Shown here piece after piece: positions 4,486 through 23,719 of a stretch of 42,061 nucleotides of DNA. Numbering within the stretch: position 1 is the first letter of the stretch; each line of letters begins with the position of its first letter. The translations under genes were made by a program, and so were the position numbers. Source of the DNA: Verrucomicrobiota bacterium (lineage in GTDB: Bacteria > Verrucomicrobiota > Verrucomicrobiia > JAWXBN01); assembly GCA_034440155.1 (NCBI GenBank), contig JAWXBN010000100.1, positions 1 through 42,061 on the forward strand. The letters run 5' to 3'. A model generated the notes under the pieces. The model had not been told where the DNA came from and made no database searches. It saw nothing but the letters and a program-made list of their open reading frames with translations.

Positions 4486-5928
4486 CTAGGGAATATTCTT
4501 TTTTTCTATGATATTGATAAAGACTTTTGCCCGGTAATCATCGTTCTTATCCGTGGGCACAACGGCATTTGGGAGATTAATCCAAGTCTCGAAGATATAA
4601 TCGCCGGGTTTCGTAATCAGCGAAAGGTCGACAGGAACTGTGTCTATGTGTTGGCTACTTTTCCAGGATGAGGTCATGACTTTGATTTTCTTCTTATTCG
4701 GTTCAGCTCTCATCAAGGCGATTTCAAACCGGGGATCTAATCCGGATACGAGGGGTTTGACCGGAGCGTCAATGGTTCGTACACGGGCGAGGCGAACCGT
4801 GATTTTAGAGGGGTCGAACCATAATACCTGATACTTTGAGGGGAGTCCTGTGATCATATCCGGACTAAGCTCGATAGGGTTACTGCCTTCCTTCATTTTG
4901 TCGCCATCGACTTGAATAGCCCACTCACGGTTTTTGGCCAGAACGATATTTCGGGGGGTACGGACCATGAATTCCACAATGGGACTGGTAATATTATCGA
5001 CGTAGATATTATCTTCGAGGTTGAGGACTTTGACGGATGCTTGTTGGGAAATGATCATCTCCTGTTTACCAAAGAGCCTGTCGCTAATAGTGCCGATATT
5101 ATATGAGCCGACGGAGGCGAGGATCACGGCTAATATCCATAAGGCAGGGGAGAGGACGGAAATCCGGCGTGAGGACTCGGATTCTTTGGAGATAAAAATC
5201 TTAGTGAGGGCGATCCGGAGCTCTTCAACGGTTCCTGACGGGAGAATGTGGCACAGGCCTTCTTTGAACCAAGTGATACTCCCGCGTTCCTCCGAGACGA
5301 CGAGGACATCGGCGTCGCATCTCTCGGACAAACCTAAGGCGGCCAAATGCCGTGTGCCCCATTCATCATGATCCTGGATCCTGTCAGACAGGGGGAGGAC
5401 AGCCCCGACATGCATAATGCGGTTTGCAGTCAGGATGATGGCCCCGTCGTGGCGTGGGCTTTCCGGATTAAATAAGGAAACACAAAGGGACTTCGTGAAT
5501 TTTGCGTCATACATTTCCCCGCCGACGATGAGGTCTTCGAGGGAGTCATTATGGGAGAGCACCATGATGGCCCCTTCCCTGCGGGATTTGAGTTCGATTA
5601 AGGAGTGGGTGATCTCTTGGATCAGCTCGGGGGTCTGGGATTTCCCCCGGTGTAAAATATTTTGGATGCTGATCCTCTGGATAATGACTTTTAATTCAGG
5701 CAAGGCTTGTATGAGGGATATAATCAGGAAAGGAACGGCGATAGCCATACTGATAAAGGAGGCCAAAGGTAATCCCAAGAGGGTGAAAACAATGACGACG
5801 AAAAGCAGTGAGAGAAAGGAAGCCGAAATATAAAGAAACCGTTTATTCGTCACAGCAAGGCCCATCAGTAGTCGCAAGACAACTGTGCAAACAGCGATAT
5901 CGATGAGATGGAGCCAGAGATTTGACAT
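4486..5928 (-). CDS. cdaA: Membrane diadenylate cyclase fused to YbbR/CdaR-like domain
   Basis: The N-terminal half matches CdaA, which condenses two ATP into c-di-AMP at the membrane: about three transmembrane helices in residues 8-75, then a DAC domain with DGA at 161-163, GTRH at 191-194 and VSEERGSI at 211-218. The usual RHR triplet reads RHL here. After the cyclase a further membrane segment (about 259-276) leads into about 200 residues resembling the extracytoplasmic YbbR repeat of CdaR, the regulator normally encoded by a separate gene beside cdaA; WFDPSKITVRL and a proline-rich strand pattern support this. The 480-residue length far exceeds a typical CdaA (about 270). I infer a one-piece synthase-regulator. 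No glmM lies next to it, unlike the Firmicute operon. Confidence 0.85.
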   Translation of the reverse strand: MSNLWLHLIDIAVCTVVLRLLMGLAVTNKRFLYISASFLSLLFVVIVFTLLGLPLASFISMAIAVPFLIISLIQALPELKVIIQRISIQNILHRGKSQTPELIQEITHSLIELKSRREGAIMVLSHNDSLEDLIVGGEMYDAKFTKSLCVSLFNPESPRHDGAIILTANRIMHVGAVLPLSDRIQDHDEWGTRHLAALGLSERCDADVLVVSEERGSITWFKEGLCHILPSGTVEELRIALTKIFISKESESSRRISVLSPALWILAVILASVGSYNIGTISDRLFGKQEMIISQQASVKVLNLEDNIYVDNITSPIVEFMVRTPRNIVLAKNREWAIQVDGDKMKEGSNPIELSPDMITGLPSKYQVLWFDPSKITVRLARVRTIDAPVKPLVSGLDPRFEIALMRAEPNKKKIKVMTSSWKSSQHIDTVPVDLSLITKPGDYIFETWINLPNAVVPTDKNDDYRAKVFINIIEKKNIP

Positions 5929-6061
5929 GATCAGATGCCTTCAGGGAAAGGCTCTTACTTTTGTATCCTATCAAGCACAGGAAAACAATAGGAGTTTCAT
6001 CCAAAGATCATGTTTTTTTGGGTCTTGGCGGTTGTGTAGGTTTCAGGCAGGTTACACCCTG

Positions 6062-6796
6062 ATGAAATCCCCCATTTTGATTACTTGTGCCGTTCCGGAT
6101 GAATTAGCCTTTTTTGTCGGGCGTTTAAGCGGTCGTAAACAAATATTAGTAGGTAAAAGAAAGCTGATCCAAGGGCAATTAATAGGGGTCAAGAAAACCT
6201 TGGACATCTATATCCTATTCACAGGGATGGGTGGGGAGGTTGCTGGAGAAGCTTTAATCCGAATTTTGCAGGAGATTCAGCCAGGAACCGTGATTATCAG
6301 TGGTACAGCCGGGGGATTGACTAAAGGGATCAAGACCGGGGATCTGTTTATTGCCCAAAATTATGGGGAGGAGGGACTTCGGGCTGGATTCAGTAACAGG
6401 CTGGACCTTGTCGCATTACCGGGAAAGGTCTGGAGGGAAACTCTCGTGACGGTGGAAACTGTGACATCAGGGAGAGATGCTAAGACAATGCTTCACGAGA
6501 AAACGGGCGCGGGCGCTGTCGATATGGAAAGTTCTTTTCTCGCTCGGATAACCGGGGAGCGGGGGATCCCCTCGATTGTTATCCGTGTCATTAGTGATGG
6601 ATTAAATGATCAAATGCCAGTGCCATTTGGGGAATTCATGAGGGCAGACGGGTTTCTCTCCCTTCCAAGGTTGATTGTCTATGTCTTGATACGCCCTTGG
6701 AAAATACCGGCCCTCGTGGTTTTTGGCTGTCGGGTACGGAGGGCCTGCGACCAGCTGGGGGTGGCCCTGGAGAAATTATTACTTTACGAGGCTTGA
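6062..6796 (+). CDS. Nucleoside phosphorylase-family protein, HpnG-like
   Basis: This 244-residue protein belongs to the PNP/MTA-SAH nucleosidase superfamily. SGTAGGL at about 80 is the phosphate/ribose-binding glycine segment, VDMES at about 154 is the purine/ribose motif and VIRVISD at about 173 holds the conserved aspartate. The C-terminal segment, LPRLIVYVLIRPWKIPAL followed by an Ala/Arg-rich helix, resembles hopanoid-associated phosphorylase (HpnG), which releases adenine from adenosylhopane. Futalosine hydrolase or MTA/SAH nucleosidase remain alternatives. I chose the ATG at 6062 because residues upstream of it in the open frame show no family similarity and reach into the divergent gene. 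No other hopanoid gene is visible nearby. Confidence 0.7.
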   Translation: MKSPILITCAVPDELAFFVGRLSGRKQILVGKRKLIQGQLIGVKKTLDIYILFTGMGGEVAGEALIRILQEIQPGTVIISGTAGGLTKGIKTGDLFIAQNYGEEGLRAGFSNRLDLVALPGKVWRETLVTVETVTSGRDAKTMLHEKTGAGAVDMESSFLARITGERGIPSIVIRVISDGLNDQMPVPFGEFMRADGFLSLPRLIVYVLIRPWKIPALVVFGCRVRRACDQLGVALEKLLLYEA

Positions 6797-6827: not shown

Positions 6828-8480
6828 ATGAAATTCCGAAGGCGAATCTTTTTGAAATGCGTTTTTTATATCGCCGCATCCGCCCTGATTATCTACTGCG
6901 CGGGATTGGTGTTTGTATCCTATATTAAAGCTAACTTCCGGCAGATTGCTAATGACTGGATGATCGACCAGAATATCAAAGCGGAAATCGACTATGAATC
7001 GATCCATTTTGGGGGCCTTCACAGTGTGACATTTAAGGGGGTGACGATCTACCCCAAAAACATGAAAGATAAACCGATTATTGAAATTGCCAATCTCCGG
7101 TTCAGGTATACGATTTTTAAATTACTCAAAAAGAGGATGGAGTTAATTTCCATTGAGTCTCCGCGTTTCCGGTTGGCAAAGGAAATAGACCAGGTGATCG
7201 ACCTTCAGCATGATGTGGCTGCCGCAGATCCAGCCGCCCCGAAGATAAAGCCGTGGTTTGTGGAAAAGATGCGCGTGTCGGATGGGAGCATTCATCTGGA
7301 TGACCTCGGTGACGCTATCCCACCGGTTGTTTTTGATTTTGAGACAAGCATGGATAATGTCTGGCTGGGGGATAATGAGGAGGAAGACGAGCCTATAGCT
7401 GTGGCATATATCAGGAGGTTAAAGATTTATTCACCTTGGGATTTATTCACACCCGTTTTGGATTTTCCTGAAATTAAAATCCGCTACAGGGTATCGAACT
7501 TATTGAGAAAGAAGCTGGATGGGTTGGATATCCTCACGCCTATCATTTACATTGGGGAAGACCTGTTTTGGTTGTCGAATTACGCCGATAACATGAATAA
7601 AAAAAGACCCACCAATCAAAAAAAGAATATCCCTTGGACGATTGGCGAGTTTCGTGTGGTGGATGGGAAGATTGGGCTCCAATATTTCGGAAAAATGCAG
7701 TTCATGCTGCCCCTAAAGTTCCAAGCAAATTCGGAGAATATCATGGTGGGCAGTTTTGATAATTTGCAGCTCAAGACATCTTTTGTCTTCGAGAAGTCAT
7801 CTTTTTATTACCCGGAATACAATCTAAGTATTGAAGATGTGGAAGGAAGCTTAGACTTCTCAATGCCACCAAATGTCGATGCGGATAATATCGTTCAGGT
7901 GGTCAAAGTGCGTGGATTCCGCTGGAAGGATTTTACAGCGAAGGATCTTTGGGTGTCCGTGACGTTTGATGCTAAGGGTATTTATTTGGAGTTTGGGGGA
8001 AATTCGTATGGAGGGTATTTGAATGGTGCCGGGGATCTGAGTTTAAAGGGTGTGTTGCCTTGGAATGCTTCGCTGGCGGTCTCGAAAATCGATCTGGGCA
8101 GTTTGACGAAGTCAGTGGCAGTAGACCGTTTTATTATGACCGGTAAAGCGAATTTGAAAACCGTGGTCAAAGCCGAAGGGAAATATGTGAAAGAGGTCAA
8201 AGGCAGTCTGCTTTTGGCAAACTCGGGGAAAATGACTATTCCCGCCTTGGAAGCTTTTTTACCAAAAATCGAACAAGAAAAATGGGATCAGATTAGGAAG
8301 GATCTCGCTGAGATTTTTGTGAGAAGTTTTAGTGATTATCACTATACTCACGGGAGTTTATTATTTGATTATACCCCGAAGGGTGGCAAGATTGATCTCA
8401 AGATGGATGGTGACGGAGGCAAAAGAAATATCAGCATCATTTTAAAAGAAGACGTGTTTAATCAAAAAATAACAAAGTAA
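6828..8480 (+). CDS. YdbH/AsmA-like intermembrane bridge protein
   Basis: This 550-residue protein has one N-terminal membrane anchor (about 9-32) followed by a long beta-strand-rich periplasmic region of the AsmA/TamB/YdbH type. These proteins form hydrophobic grooves that carry phospholipids between the inner and outer membranes. The last 50 residues (LFDYTPKGGKIDLKMDGDGG region) resemble the C-terminal end of YdbH. The decisive clue is the next gene, 3 bp away, which encodes YnbE and YdbL modules, the known partners of YdbH in E. coli. It is shorter than E. coli YdbH (about 880 residues). AsmA-superfamily membership is well supported; YdbH identity rests largely on context. Confidence 0.75.
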   Translation: MKFRRRIFLKCVFYIAASALIIYCAGLVFVSYIKANFRQIANDWMIDQNIKAEIDYESIHFGGLHSVTFKGVTIYPKNMKDKPIIEIANLRFRYTIFKLLKKRMELISIESPRFRLAKEIDQVIDLQHDVAAADPAAPKIKPWFVEKMRVSDGSIHLDDLGDAIPPVVFDFETSMDNVWLGDNEEEDEPIAVAYIRRLKIYSPWDLFTPVLDFPEIKIRYRVSNLLRKKLDGLDILTPIIYIGEDLFWLSNYADNMNKKRPTNQKKNIPWTIGEFRVVDGKIGLQYFGKMQFMLPLKFQANSENIMVGSFDNLQLKTSFVFEKSSFYYPEYNLSIEDVEGSLDFSMPPNVDADNIVQVVKVRGFRWKDFTAKDLWVSVTFDAKGIYLEFGGNSYGGYLNGAGDLSLKGVLPWNASLAVSKIDLGSLTKSVAVDRFIMTGKANLKTVVKAEGKYVKEVKGSLLLANSGKMTIPALEAFLPKIEQEKWDQIRKDLAEIFVRSFSDYHYTHGSLLFDYTPKGGKIDLKMDGDGGKRNISIILKEDVFNQKITK

Positions 8481-8483
8481 CTT

Positions 8484-9032
8484 ATGCCAAAGAATATTTT
8501 ATTAAAAGGGTTTATCTGCTGTGGATTCGGGCTTTTCCTGACCTCGGGCTGTACGCCGACGGTCCAGCTTGCTGCCCCAAAAGATGCGGTTAAAATCGAT
8601 GTGAATATGAAGGTGGAGGTAGTTACCCGTAAAGAAGGCGGGGATCCGATTGTTGTCACCACGACATCCTCAAACCAGTCACCCGCCTCGGTGGTTTCGG
8701 AGCCGAGCGACGCCCGCAGGGATAGGATATCCGAGTACAAAGCACTTTTGAACCGGGGGGTGGCCGGTGTGAACCGCAAGGGGTTATTAGAGATCCTCCC
8801 TGTAGGTAATAAAGCCACTGATAAGCAGTATATTGAGAAGATTATTACTCATGAGAATACAGATCGAATTAATTTGTTGCAGGCTCAGGCAAAAAGTGAA
8901 GGTCAACCCTTAGACCGTGTGGAAGGCGAATTTTACAATCGCCAAAAACAGGCCGTCGAAAATGGGTTAAGCCCTGTTTGGGTTGAGGTCAAAAATGATG
9001 CGGATCAATGGGCCTGGAAAAAAATTCCTTAG
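8484..9032 (+). CDS. YnbE-YdbL fusion lipoprotein
   Basis: The 182-residue product starts with a lipoprotein signal (FLTSGC, lipidated cysteine C23). Immediately after the cysteine, TPTVQLAAPKDAVKIDVNMK closely follows the YnbE pattern (C-T-P, then AAPK, then NxNVKxE). After a Ser/Thr-rich linker (about 47-75), residues 80-182 follow the YdbL/DUF1318 pattern: KALLNRGVAGVNRKGLLE, a stretch of N-x-x-R and Gly-Gln motifs, and a final W-x-K-K. In E. coli, YnbE is the outer-membrane lipoprotein that stacks on the YdbH C-terminus and YdbL is a separate periplasmic protein that tunes the assembly. Here they appear covalently joined, directly after the YdbH-like gene. Family assignment is from pattern recognition, not a search. 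Confidence 0.8.
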   Translation: MPKNILLKGFICCGFGLFLTSGCTPTVQLAAPKDAVKIDVNMKVEVVTRKEGGDPIVVTTTSSNQSPASVVSEPSDARRDRISEYKALLNRGVAGVNRKGLLEILPVGNKATDKQYIEKIITHENTDRINLLQAQAKSEGQPLDRVEGEFYNRQKQAVENGLSPVWVEVKNDADQWAWKKIP

Positions 9033-19558: not shown

Positions 19559-21925
19559 CTAGAAATTTTTTGATTTCCACTTTGGGTTGGTAAAGGTCCC
19601 GTCAGCTTCATATTCAAAGAGCTTGCTCATGAGGAATGTAATCGCTCCAAAAATCCCTCGGACATTGATGCGTGCATCCATTTTGAGATGATCCTGAGGG
19701 ATGTCGTAGAATCCGCTGCAAATCAGGGCCCACCCACCGCCACTCATATCGAGTTGGTCTGTTTTTACGACCCCATTTTCCATGGTGAAATCACAGGTGG
19801 CCTTATTCGCTTGTAAGGAAGCGAAACCGGGGATGACGGCATCGGCTAGGGTGGATAGAGGTCCGAGAAATGGCAGGCTAACCAGGTTTCCATTGGTGAC
19901 ATCCATGTGCCCTTTGCCATCGACTTTTGCCCAATTACCGAGCCCCCCATTGAATTTTCCATGGGCATTCAGCGAGCCGGTGGATTTTCCATAATTAAAA
20001 AGGGCCATATTCAAAAGCTGGAAACTCATTGATTTAATTGTCATATCCATGTCAAAGATCGTGTCCTGACCGGGGATAAATTTGAAATTAGCATTTCCCT
20101 CTAGAGTACCTTTATAGATATCGCTTTTGAACCCGGTGAGCTGGCATTTTCCTTGGGTGATCCGAAGTTTTGTCTGGATCCGGTCAAATTTTAAAGTTGC
20201 TTTTGTCATCGGATAATCGATTTTTTGCCCATTGATCGAAATCAGAACATCCGTTTTGTCACCTGTTACGTAATCGACATAACCATTGACAGTCGCTTGG
20301 GGTGGTTGGTGAAAAATATAGGGTTTTACAGCATCAACAGACTTAGGCCCGAGGACTGTAGCGATCGGTAGGGGGTAGAGTTGGGATTTAAAGTTGATGA
20401 TCTGGAGGAGTTGGTCTTTGAATGTGTAAATTATTTCCCCATTTCCCCGTCCTTCTTTCCTCACCACAAGCGCGTTATAACAACGCAATTTGCCCCCCGA
20501 AATATCAAGATCAGTGGAGATTTGTTGGAAGGATTGGTTGACTAAATAGCAATTTTTAATAATAGCAGTTCCCGAAATTTTGAAGCTAGGGTCTTTCTGG
20601 GTGGTGCCTGCTGCCTTTACATCGAGTAATAATGGCGTGTTTACCTTTGTGAACATCATGAAGTATTTTTGATAATTTTCAGGCACCAAATTCACAAAAT
20701 TCAGCGGGTTAATCGCTCCCTGCAGTTCCCCCGTGAGCTCAGTAGATGCGAGATTATAAAGGATTTTCGCCTTGGTTTCACCAAATGAGTCTTTCAGGAA
20801 AAACTGGGGGATGAGGAGTTCACCATTCTGCAGTGCAAACGGGATATCTAACTTTTCAAAATAGGTGCCTGCATAAGTAAAAGACGTAAATCCTAAACGG
20901 CCATAGACACTCCAATTACCGATTTGACTTCCACTTTGTGTTGCCGTGAGGCTGAATTGAGGGCGTTGGAAAAACTCGAACGAGCTGAGCACCCGTTTGA
21001 GGTGAGGATTTAACTCAAAAGAGAACAGAGTAAAATCAAAGTCGCTGACTACGTTTAATTGAGCATAAGGCTCTTCGAGATGTTTATAGCCTGTTGCAGA
21101 AAAAGATCCTGAGGATGTCGAAAATGAAAACTTTTCCAATGTAAGGACTGAATCTTGGAGTTTGAGCAGAAAATCAACAGAGTCGATATTGACATTTTGA
21201 AGTATTAAATTATTTGCACGCAGGACTGCCTCGGCTTTCCATGAATGGATATTTGATAAATCACCGGAAACAATCACTTTCAGATCCGGTTCATGGTTGA
21301 ATTTTATCTGTTTAAGTATGCCAAAGATTTTTTTTCGGAGGATTAGACGTGATTTTTTATCTTCTTCAGAGAGAACCTTCTTTTTAAAGGGAAGGGGGTT
21401 GAGGATGAGCTTGGCTTCCAGATTGAATCGTACACCGGCGGCGATACCATTGAGTGAATCAATGACTAAGGTGTTTTTACCAGTGAAATGTCCGATAGCA
21501 TGGGTGTCTGTGATCGAGAAAACCCCTTCAGAGGGATGCTCGGGGTCTATTGGAAAGCTGAGTTCGACATTTTTAGCTTCCAAAGATGTAACGGGGTTCT
21601 CTCTTTTTATTAAACGCCAAATGGAAAATGATAATTGAACCTCTGAGACGCTGGTTAAGGTCCTGCCTGTGAGTGGATCCAGAAAGTATACATCTTCTGC
21701 GATCAAACCTCTAAGTGGGTTAAGATAAAGCTTGCTGATTCTGGCTTGCATGCCGTGCTCGGCAAGCGCGGACTGGAGTTTATTAGTGATTCCCGGAGGA
21801 AATCCGGCAAAATAGAGATAACAAAGGACAAGGATGACGATGATCGATATCAACAATAAAGTTGAACGCGATATCATCATGGTCCCCCGTAATATCAGGG
21901 ATTTAATAGTCCTTTTGAGTGGCAT
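19559..21925 (-). CDS. AsmA-like periplasmic protein
   Basis: This 788-residue protein has an N-terminal membrane anchor (about 22-41) followed by a long beta-strand-rich region and the typical AsmA C-terminal block. That block contains GSLNAHGKFNGGLGNW, a segment beginning VTNGNLVSLPFLGPLSTL, and a closing motif near the end with DHLKMDARINVRGIFG. AsmA-superfamily proteins span the periplasm and help move phospholipids to the outer membrane. It begins 9 bp after the DUF4340 gene, suggesting translation from one mRNA. An internal ATG at 21880 would shorten the cytoplasmic tip by 15 residues. It is the second AsmA-superfamily protein in the window and differs clearly from the YdbH-like one. 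Confidence 0.8.
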   Translation of the reverse strand: MPLKRTIKSLILRGTMMISRSTLLLISIIVILVLCYLYFAGFPPGITNKLQSALAEHGMQARISKLYLNPLRGLIAEDVYFLDPLTGRTLTSVSEVQLSFSIWRLIKRENPVTSLEAKNVELSFPIDPEHPSEGVFSITDTHAIGHFTGKNTLVIDSLNGIAAGVRFNLEAKLILNPLPFKKKVLSEEDKKSRLILRKKIFGILKQIKFNHEPDLKVIVSGDLSNIHSWKAEAVLRANNLILQNVNIDSVDFLLKLQDSVLTLEKFSFSTSSGSFSATGYKHLEEPYAQLNVVSDFDFTLFSFELNPHLKRVLSSFEFFQRPQFSLTATQSGSQIGNWSVYGRLGFTSFTYAGTYFEKLDIPFALQNGELLIPQFFLKDSFGETKAKILYNLASTELTGELQGAINPLNFVNLVPENYQKYFMMFTKVNTPLLLDVKAAGTTQKDPSFKISGTAIIKNCYLVNQSFQQISTDLDISGGKLRCYNALVVRKEGRGNGEIIYTFKDQLLQIINFKSQLYPLPIATVLGPKSVDAVKPYIFHQPPQATVNGYVDYVTGDKTDVLISINGQKIDYPMTKATLKFDRIQTKLRITQGKCQLTGFKSDIYKGTLEGNANFKFIPGQDTIFDMDMTIKSMSFQLLNMALFNYGKSTGSLNAHGKFNGGLGNWAKVDGKGHMDVTNGNLVSLPFLGPLSTLADAVIPGFASLQANKATCDFTMENGVVKTDQLDMSGGGWALICSGFYDIPQDHLKMDARINVRGIFGAITFLMSKLFEYEADGTFTNPKWKSKNF

Positions 21926-21934
21926 CGGGTCAGT

Positions 21935-23719
21935 TTATGTCTTTGTTGTTGTTAGTTCTTTTTCAATGAGTTGGAAAATGCTTTCATCGATATAATAGAT
22001 ATACTTTTGTCCTTCCACAGTCATTGGGCGCCCGAGTTTTTTATCTTGTTTTCCGAATGATAGCTTTATCTTTTTACCGTCATTCAAGGAGATGATGAGT
22101 TCCAATGCGGGATTTAAAAGGTCTTTAGGCAGATTTGTATATTTATTGACTGAGATTGCCCGCAGATTTTGTACGGCGCTCAAGAGTGTGGATAACCTTT
22201 CATTACTAATGACTCCTTGGTTATTACCTGCCAGAAGCCAACTTTGGCTCGTCGGATCCTTGGAGACAATGGCATAACTTTTCCCGTTTTTAATGACTTC
22301 CAATCCGGTGATTGTATCTGGCTCGATACTCACCGCGATATGATTCAGATAAAAACTAGGATCTGGATTCAGGAAATTGATAATATCTGGATTTACCCGG
22401 TAAATGAATATTTCATCGGAGCGTTTAACATAAACACCACCTTTATCGGTTTTACCGAAATCAAATCTGATTGTTGCCGGGGAGTTTGTGGGGGCATTAT
22501 CTGTATTTGCGTTGAGTGACAAACTGTGGAGGGCAGGTTCTAATCCAAAAGTCTTGAGGGATTCAGGGGCATCGGATACATATTGGGAAATTTGCGATTT
22601 CATTAAGGTGTCCAGAAGTTGTATGATGATTGCTGTGTCGGCCGGTGACCCTTCTGCATCATCGATCTTCCATTCATTATCTTTTTTGAGCAATACGACC
22701 TTCTTGCTGCCAGACTGGATAACTAATGAATTCAATTCATTAGAATATCGGTCAATTAAATGTTTATCACGGTATTCTGCGAGCGGTTTTGTTAATTCCT
22801 TAAACAATTCTGCTGTAATGGTAATCACGCTGTTGGAATCTTTGAGTTTCGCGTAATATTTCTGGGGTGTATTGGGAACTGGTTGTCCGATCAAAAGTGT
22901 CTGGGGCTTGTCTGATTCTGAAGAGCGGATCGAGACTTCCATATCGGGTTCACTTAATCCATAGTTTTTAAGGTCTGCGGAACCTTCGGCAATAAAATCC
23001 ATGGCACGGGCATCAGTAAGAAACAACGTCAGGTCAGTGACTTTATCGGTGGCAGCCCGTGCATCGATCGGCTTAGTGATCCGGGGAATATTATTAGTGA
23101 AGGTGAATTGAATTTGATAAAGATTTGTAGGAGACAAACTCCTGATATCTACTTGTTGGACGGATTTAGCTTGAAAGGGGAAAATACTCCTGTCCCGCAA
23201 ATGGCTTAAATCACGGGCAAGAGTTTCCCTTGCATATTGAGGGATAATATAGACATCAGCATTTTCTTCTTTTTGAACAAACAAACCATTACCCATGGGA
23301 GTATCAGCACCTAAGCGCAAGGAATACCGTTGATCGGGTGTTGACCAGCTCAGAATATGAGTAGGTTTTTTCAGGTGGTATTCCTTGTCCAATGTATCGG
23401 GATTAATATCAGAAAATTTGATTTTTCTTTGAAAATTTATTGAGTTCAGTGATTGGATAATCGTATCAATCTCAAACTGGTCTGCTTTTGTTTCCAGCGG
23501 CTCCACAATGCTCCATTGATCCTTTTCCTTTTTGGCGACAATAGCCCCCTCAGCATTGAGAATTACTAACTCGACTACGTTAGTAGGAGTAAAATCATAT
23601 ATCTTCTCGTCAGCATCTGATCGTTGTTGATAAGTGTTCCCATGCCTTTCCTTGAACCAAATAAAACCACCCAGAATGGACAAGACGATTAAAAGTATAA
23701 GTGTATTACGAACTTTCAT
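21935..23719 (-). CDS. DUF4340 membrane-anchored protein
   Basis: This 594-residue protein has a single N-terminal membrane helix (about 5-22) and at least two repeats of the DUF4340 pattern. In each repeat a beta pair ends in W-x-I-x-x-P or W-K-I-x-D, followed by a helix that pairs a threshold-like LxxL segment, as in KEKDQWSIVEPLETKAD and KKDNEWKIDDAEGSPAD. DUF4340 proteins commonly accompany GldF/GldG-type ABC-2 exporters, but no such transporter gene is in this window. Here it lies between murI and an AsmA-like gene, which points to a role in the cell envelope. The molecular function is unknown. Confidence 0.8.
   Translation of the reverse strand: MKVRNTLILLIVLSILGGFIWFKERHGNTYQQRSDADEKIYDFTPTNVVELVILNAEGAIVAKKEKDQWSIVEPLETKADQFEIDTIIQSLNSINFQRKIKFSDINPDTLDKEYHLKKPTHILSWSTPDQRYSLRLGADTPMGNGLFVQKEENADVYIIPQYARETLARDLSHLRDRSIFPFQAKSVQQVDIRSLSPTNLYQIQFTFTNNIPRITKPIDARAATDKVTDLTLFLTDARAMDFIAEGSADLKNYGLSEPDMEVSIRSSESDKPQTLLIGQPVPNTPQKYYAKLKDSNSVITITAELFKELTKPLAEYRDKHLIDRYSNELNSLVIQSGSKKVVLLKKDNEWKIDDAEGSPADTAIIIQLLDTLMKSQISQYVSDAPESLKTFGLEPALHSLSLNANTDNAPTNSPATIRFDFGKTDKGGVYVKRSDEIFIYRVNPDIINFLNPDPSFYLNHIAVSIEPDTITGLEVIKNGKSYAIVSKDPTSQSWLLAGNNQGVISNERLSTLLSAVQNLRAISVNKYTNLPKDLLNPALELIISLNDGKKIKLSFGKQDKKLGRPMTVEGQKYIYYIDESIFQLIEKELTTTKT

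Follow-up and report, generated by a model that had tools for sequence, protein, structure and literature searches.

The closest described counterpart of the locus presented here is the ydbH-ynbE-ydbL operon of Escherichia coli K-12, whose three products reportedly form an intermembrane phospholipid bridge, as described by Kumar, Davis and Ruiz in 2024 and by Ruiz et al. in 2021. YdbL is said to have been proposed, by Kumar, Davis and Ruiz in 2024, as a chaperone-like protein that prevents runaway stacking of YnbE, and the molecule name given to PDB 28oj is 'Probable chaperone-like protein YdbL'. YdbH is an inner-membrane-anchored groove protein that is redundant with TamB and YhdP (PMC8593681), and its C-terminus has been proposed, as restated in PMC12045153, to pair by strand augmentation with YnbE, an outer-membrane lipoprotein. 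Translation of ydbH and ynbE is strongly coupled in E. coli (PMC6728339). The TamB-TamA and TamB-TamL pairs and YhdP belong to the same superfamily of beta-groove bridges and TamB likewise has an outer-membrane partner, whereas the predicted partner at the present locus is a lipoprotein strand rather than a barrel.

The locus lies in a stretch of 42,061 nucleotides, hereafter the window, which comprises positions 1-42,061 of the forward strand of contig JAWXBN010000100.1 from a Verrucomicrobiota bacterium (GCA_034440155.1). Two ORFs occupy the same strand (+) and the same frame, 3 nt apart (TAA ctt ATG): the first (6828..8480) encodes a 550-aa YdbH-like protein of the AsmA superfamily, predicted to be beta-rich, and the second (8484..9032) a 182-aa YnbE-YdbL fusion lipoprotein. 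Jointly with the mechanism proposed below, it is likely that the locus is a two-gene version of the ydbH-ynbE-ydbL operon, in which ynbE and ydbL have been joined in one ORF. The initial annotation had proposed a YnbE-type lipoprotein covalently joined to a YdbL domain directly behind a YdbH-like gene, and this arrangement was borne out, with both ORFs where it had placed them; the tethering of YdbL and the fixed 1:1 ratio of YnbE to YdbL that it also proposed both follow from the fused architecture. Likeness to the E. coli bridge extends to the gene order, the YnbE lipobox and strand, the YdbL fold, an inner-membrane AsmA-superfamily partner and tight gene coupling. The differences are that YnbE and YdbL form a single polypeptide from which the C-terminal half of YnbE has been lost, that the YdbL domain has no signal peptide of its own, and that the YdbH-like protein is strongly diverged and 550 aa long as against 879 aa.

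Two further genes of the window lie upstream of the pair. One (4486-5928, minus strand) encodes a CdaA-type diadenylate cyclase (TIGR00159 at 133 bits, below cutoff), whose DAC domain covers aa 109-223 and whose C-terminal extension, some 250 aa long, starts with a hydrophobic helix and contains repeats that are YbbR-like by eye and have no Pfam YbbR match. The other (5885-6796, plus strand) encodes an HpnG-like (hopanoid-associated phosphorylase) or nucleosidase protein, matched below NCBIfam cutoffs; its true start is probably further in, because the GTG start overlaps the cyclase gene.

The fusion lipoprotein was aligned with 17 fused relatives. A lipoprotein signal peptide, MPKNILLKGFICCGFGLFLTSG, occupies aa 1-22 (8484..8549) and has the lipobox LTSG-C; the cysteine, Cys23, is invariant in the 17 relatives. 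After the cysteine comes CTPTVQLAAPKDAVKIDVNMKVEVV; the YnbE-like segment (aa 23-47, 8550..8624), defined by alignment, hhalign and motif count, consists of the lipidated cysteine and the strand AVKIDVNMKVEVV, without the acidic C-terminal tail. A T/S/P-rich, low-complexity linker of differing length among relatives follows (about aa 48-79, 8625..8720) and leads into the helical YdbL/DUF1318 domain (aa 80-182, 8721..9029), with the pattern GLLEI...HENTDR...G..WVE....W.

The identity of aa 80-182 as DUF1318/YdbL, claimed from the start, is upheld by three kinds of comparison. Pfam DUF1318 (PF07027) matches aa 84-161 at E=2.3e-4 and 22.1 bits, which is below the 27-bit cutoff, and matches all 17 aligned fused relatives, the best at E=2.9e-20. 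In profile-profile comparison (hhalign), the fused-family profile matches stand-alone YdbL at E=4.6e-28 and the solved E. coli YdbL, PDB 28oj, at E=3.2e-11. An AlphaFold model of the fusion, built on a three-row alignment, is disordered over aa 1-78 (pLDDT <50) and helical from residue 81 (pLDDT up to 93), and a Foldseek search of the PDB with this model places 28oj first (prob 1.00, TM 0.68 by target, E=4.7e-3). The domain shares with YdbL the helical fold and the conserved G..GYL, EN..R and G-W-Q..G-W pattern; unlike YdbL proper, a soluble periplasmic protein with its own signal peptide, it is C-terminal and predicted to be membrane-tethered, being encoded in one ORF with the lipoprotein N-terminus and the linker that precede it. 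It is the sole DUF1318 protein that a profile search found in its genome.

The preceding segment, aa 23-46, had been assigned to YnbE, an assignment that stands for the lipidated strand and fails for YnbE as a whole. A gapless alignment of CTPTVQLAAPKDAVKIDVNMKVE with E. coli YnbE CTPRIEVAAPKEPITINMNVKIE over the first 23 mature residues scores 75; among 20,000 shuffles in which the cysteine was kept, the maximum score was 53 and none reached 75. Comparison of fused with stand-alone YnbE by profile-profile alignment (hhalign, E=1.7e-8) likewise speaks for YnbE, whereas Pfam PF13617 (YnbE, Lipoprotein_19) has no match in the window protein or anywhere in its genome. The model spans aa 26-59 of E. 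coli YnbE, and the window protein goes unmatched because the counterpart of YnbE's C-terminal half is missing. On Pfam alone, the refuting condition set out in the initial annotation, a lack of any profile match of residues 23-46 to YnbE, holds for this half, and it is the other comparisons that carry the assignment. An HMM made from stand-alone YnbE only was run against 13,989 ORF segments, where it recovered 25-26 of the 37 fused ORFs at E<0.01 along with 61 other matches, a number close to that of the stand-alone ynbE genes used to build it; to the window protein its match is weak (E=0.25, rising to 1.2 when E. coli YnbE is left out of the model) but correctly placed. Both the shuffle test and the profiles identify the traits expected of a YnbE, a lipobox and a short mature N-terminus ending in an I-x-I/V-N-x-x-V strand. 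Relative to the Pfam family, the likeness lies in the lipidated cysteine and the CTP..-AAPK..-I-.-N-.-K-.E strand segment and is confined to the N-terminal half, the C-terminal half of the model having no counterpart. As judged from sequence, what is kept of YnbE is its N-terminal half, which comprises the lipobox and the predicted strand; the acidic tail at the C-terminus is gone.

The upstream gene was described at the outset as AsmA/YdbH-like, and profile comparison supports this, although the Pfam YdbH model misses it: PF11739 has no match in the window's genome, even at E=10. The Pfam and NCBIfam matches of the 550-aa protein, AsmA (PF05170, E=3e-4) and GspN_Lepto (5e-5), are both below cutoff and could be taken to mean that it is a generic AsmA-family or type II secretion GspN-like protein whose adjacency to the fusion is incidental. 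That reading is rather improbable in light of several comparisons. An HMM of 14 YdbH proteins of the phylum, the window excluded, was run on 97 upstream proteins and matches this one at E=3.7e-6, in two places and in order (aa 2-110 and 314-376). A profile of the window's clade aligns with the phylum YdbH family at E=1.9e-9 (hhalign, prob 96) over aa 314-529 (7767..8414), colinear with the conserved YdbH C-terminal core, and in the same region a relative within the clade has a sub-threshold PF11739 match (0.0091). The gene order is conserved, and the genes upstream of the fusion in three genomes encode unmistakable YdbH (L041, L093 and L106; PF11739 at 98, 64 and 57 bits, respectively). The protein also has an N-terminal hydrophobic helix (about aa 5-33, 6840..6926; helix 5-47 in the AF2 model, mean pLDDT 54), predicted to be an inner-membrane anchor, so that profile-level YdbH homology, an N-terminal anchor and a position before ynbE are all found. 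Because the phylum HMM and the clade profile match, and the clade profile against E. coli YdbH alone is not significant (E=0.27), the protein is assigned with moderate confidence as a diverged, shortened YdbH.

A survey within Verrucomicrobiota sensu lato, which the initial annotation had proposed more broadly as a check, searched 388 genomes with the fused-family profile and found that the fusion recurs: DUF1318 is present in 135 of them, and about 38 of these 135 carry the fused form. In nearly all other sampled DUF1318 genomes a separate gene for a YnbE-type lipoprotein lies immediately 5' of a ydbL whose product has a signal peptide of its own. Both states, fused and split, occur within five taxonomic families (f15, f20, f31, f32 and f77). 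That the joined ORF might be a sequencing or assembly artefact, through a frameshift or a lost stop, was considered and rejected, since the same open architecture is common to about 38 genomes of more than 10 families, with differing linkers; one genome (L032) does have a frameshift, but in the upstream gene, and nothing of the kind was found for the fused gene itself, so that the chance of an artefact is negligible. Some genomes of families f40, f52 and f61 (L046, L107, L119, L109 and L115) keep ynbE-ydbL without an upstream ydbH, other genes, such as one for a Der-like GTPase, standing in that position. The YnbE-YdbL fusion is mentioned nowhere in the open literature searched, the reach of which did not include the 2024 study by Kumar, Davis and Ruiz; it is a variant of the known E. 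coli system, new as far as the searched open literature goes.

The fusion could also be read as nothing more than a YdbL with a lipoprotein anchor, in which the YnbE segment is a mere signal and anchor that does not augment YdbH and the YdbL domain serves some other outer-membrane partner. The loss of the YnbE C-terminal half from all fused proteins fits this reading, as does a second DUF1318 lipoprotein in genomes of family f4 (L052, L053, L092 and L030), in which the YnbE segment has decayed (CRSVRISPKQPKLYDVNASINVKSPP...) and ydbH is not adjacent. Against it, the strand residues VKIDVNMKV are the best-conserved N-terminal part among the nearest fused relatives, and most sampled fused genes come after a gene for a YdbH- or AsmA-like protein, which they usually overlap at an ATGA or adjoin with a near-zero gap. 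On this evidence an anchor without a YnbE function is unlikely.

The number of times the fusion arose was addressed with two trees. The DUF1318 tree implies 4-5 changes between the fused and split states, and on its 99 columns an AU test did not reject a single fused clade (p=0.168). As one origin could not be rejected with this tree, the longer YdbH alignment was used. In the YdbH C-terminal tree (382 columns, 49 operons) the fused operons fall into three separate groups, with 3 changes, and a single fused clade is rejected (AU p=2.4e-4) for the operons other than those of the window's clade, which was left out because its YdbH is too diverged. Neither tree gives the direction of change, fusion or fission; repeated fusion is the simpler reading because the E. 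coli genes are split and the split state dominates. The fusion has therefore probably arisen more than once in Verrucomicrobiota sensu lato. One fused protein (L151, family f17) has a very long linker and nearest tree neighbours, L152 and L153, that are split; it is perhaps a further independent fusion.

The preferred reading, which is considered probable as a whole, is that the fusion provides an outer-membrane YnbE strand with its chaperone YdbL in cis, beside a short YdbH bridge; the location, the pairing, the chaperoning in cis and the transport of phospholipids are all predicted. The short YdbH would be an inner-membrane-anchored beta-groove protein that carries phospholipids across the periplasm. 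The fusion would sit in the outer membrane, where its first 25 or so mature residues would serve as the YnbE strand and lengthen the YdbH groove through strand augmentation, and the flexible linker would carry the YdbL domain, which would prevent the YnbE strands from building up amyloid-like multimers by stacking. The tethered YdbL may mask the strand until it is offered to YdbH, making the protein a self-chaperoned YnbE. The 3-nt gap at this locus and the ATGA overlaps in relatives would allow translational coupling as in E. coli. It counts against this reading that what YdbL does is known from E. coli alone. When the two genes were modelled with AF2 as a single in-frame read-through product, the YnbE strand was not placed on the YdbH-like protein, an outcome that is uninformative rather than negative because the alignment was shallow (6 rows) and pLDDT was <50 around the strand; Foldseek of this model recovered only YdbL (prob 1.00).

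With the chaperone joined to YnbE, acting in cis and in fixed 1:1 proportion, there would be no more need for a free YnbE that has a separate tail for docking YdbL. The split and fused proteins differ in a manner that bears on this point. Because the motifs below were picked after inspection and only two phylogenetically independent pairs are supported, the counts carry no phylogenetic significance and the association between tail and arginine is a lead, not a result: an acidic C-terminal box, LDDFFGDLD (as a regular expression), is present in 50 of 60 split YnbE proteins and in none of 37 fused ones; at the YdbL position that corresponds to E. coli A83, 56 of 60 split proteins and 5 of 37 fused ones have Arg, which, counted by the box, is found in all 50 box-bearing pairs as against 11 of 47 that lack it; Y65 (E. 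coli numbering) is invariant in split YdbL and Tyr in 16 of 37 fused proteins, and position 87 behaves similarly. This pattern suggests that the YnbE tail may be the grip of free YdbL on free YnbE, dispensable once the two are joined. It is a tentative and rather doubtful extension that, in split operons, the acidic aromatic docking box binds an Arg/Ile/Tyr face of YdbL (E. coli 83, 87 and 65) and that repeated independent fusion has dispensed with it, in which case the fusions would reveal the site at which YdbL grips YnbE and would also show YdbL to act in cis, on a single YnbE at a time.

Other AsmA-superfamily genes occur in the same genome. The window itself encodes a second such protein (19559-21925, minus strand; 788 aa; PF05170 at 32.3 bits, above the 29.8 cutoff), with genes for a DUF4340 protein (21935-23719), a racemase and an N-acetylmuramoyl-L-alanine amidase as neighbours, and one AsmA/YhdP-type protein is encoded elsewhere (contig C10, 9166-10185). 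TamB (PF04357) has no match in this genome, which is 97% complete, and the YdbH-like/fusion pair would be one of its few AsmA-superfamily candidates for phospholipid traffic. More broadly, the bridge is extended to Verrucomicrobiota sensu lato, where it is undescribed in the literature searched. A natural and probably recurrent fusion is independent evidence for joint action of YnbE and YdbL at the outer membrane; it speaks for YnbE itself, and not YdbH alone, as the partner of YdbL, and suggests that a bridge can work with YnbE and YdbL in a fixed 1:1 ratio. The role of YdbL has so far been proposed from one organism, and a self-chaperoned YnbE would make both its partner and its mode of action directly testable.
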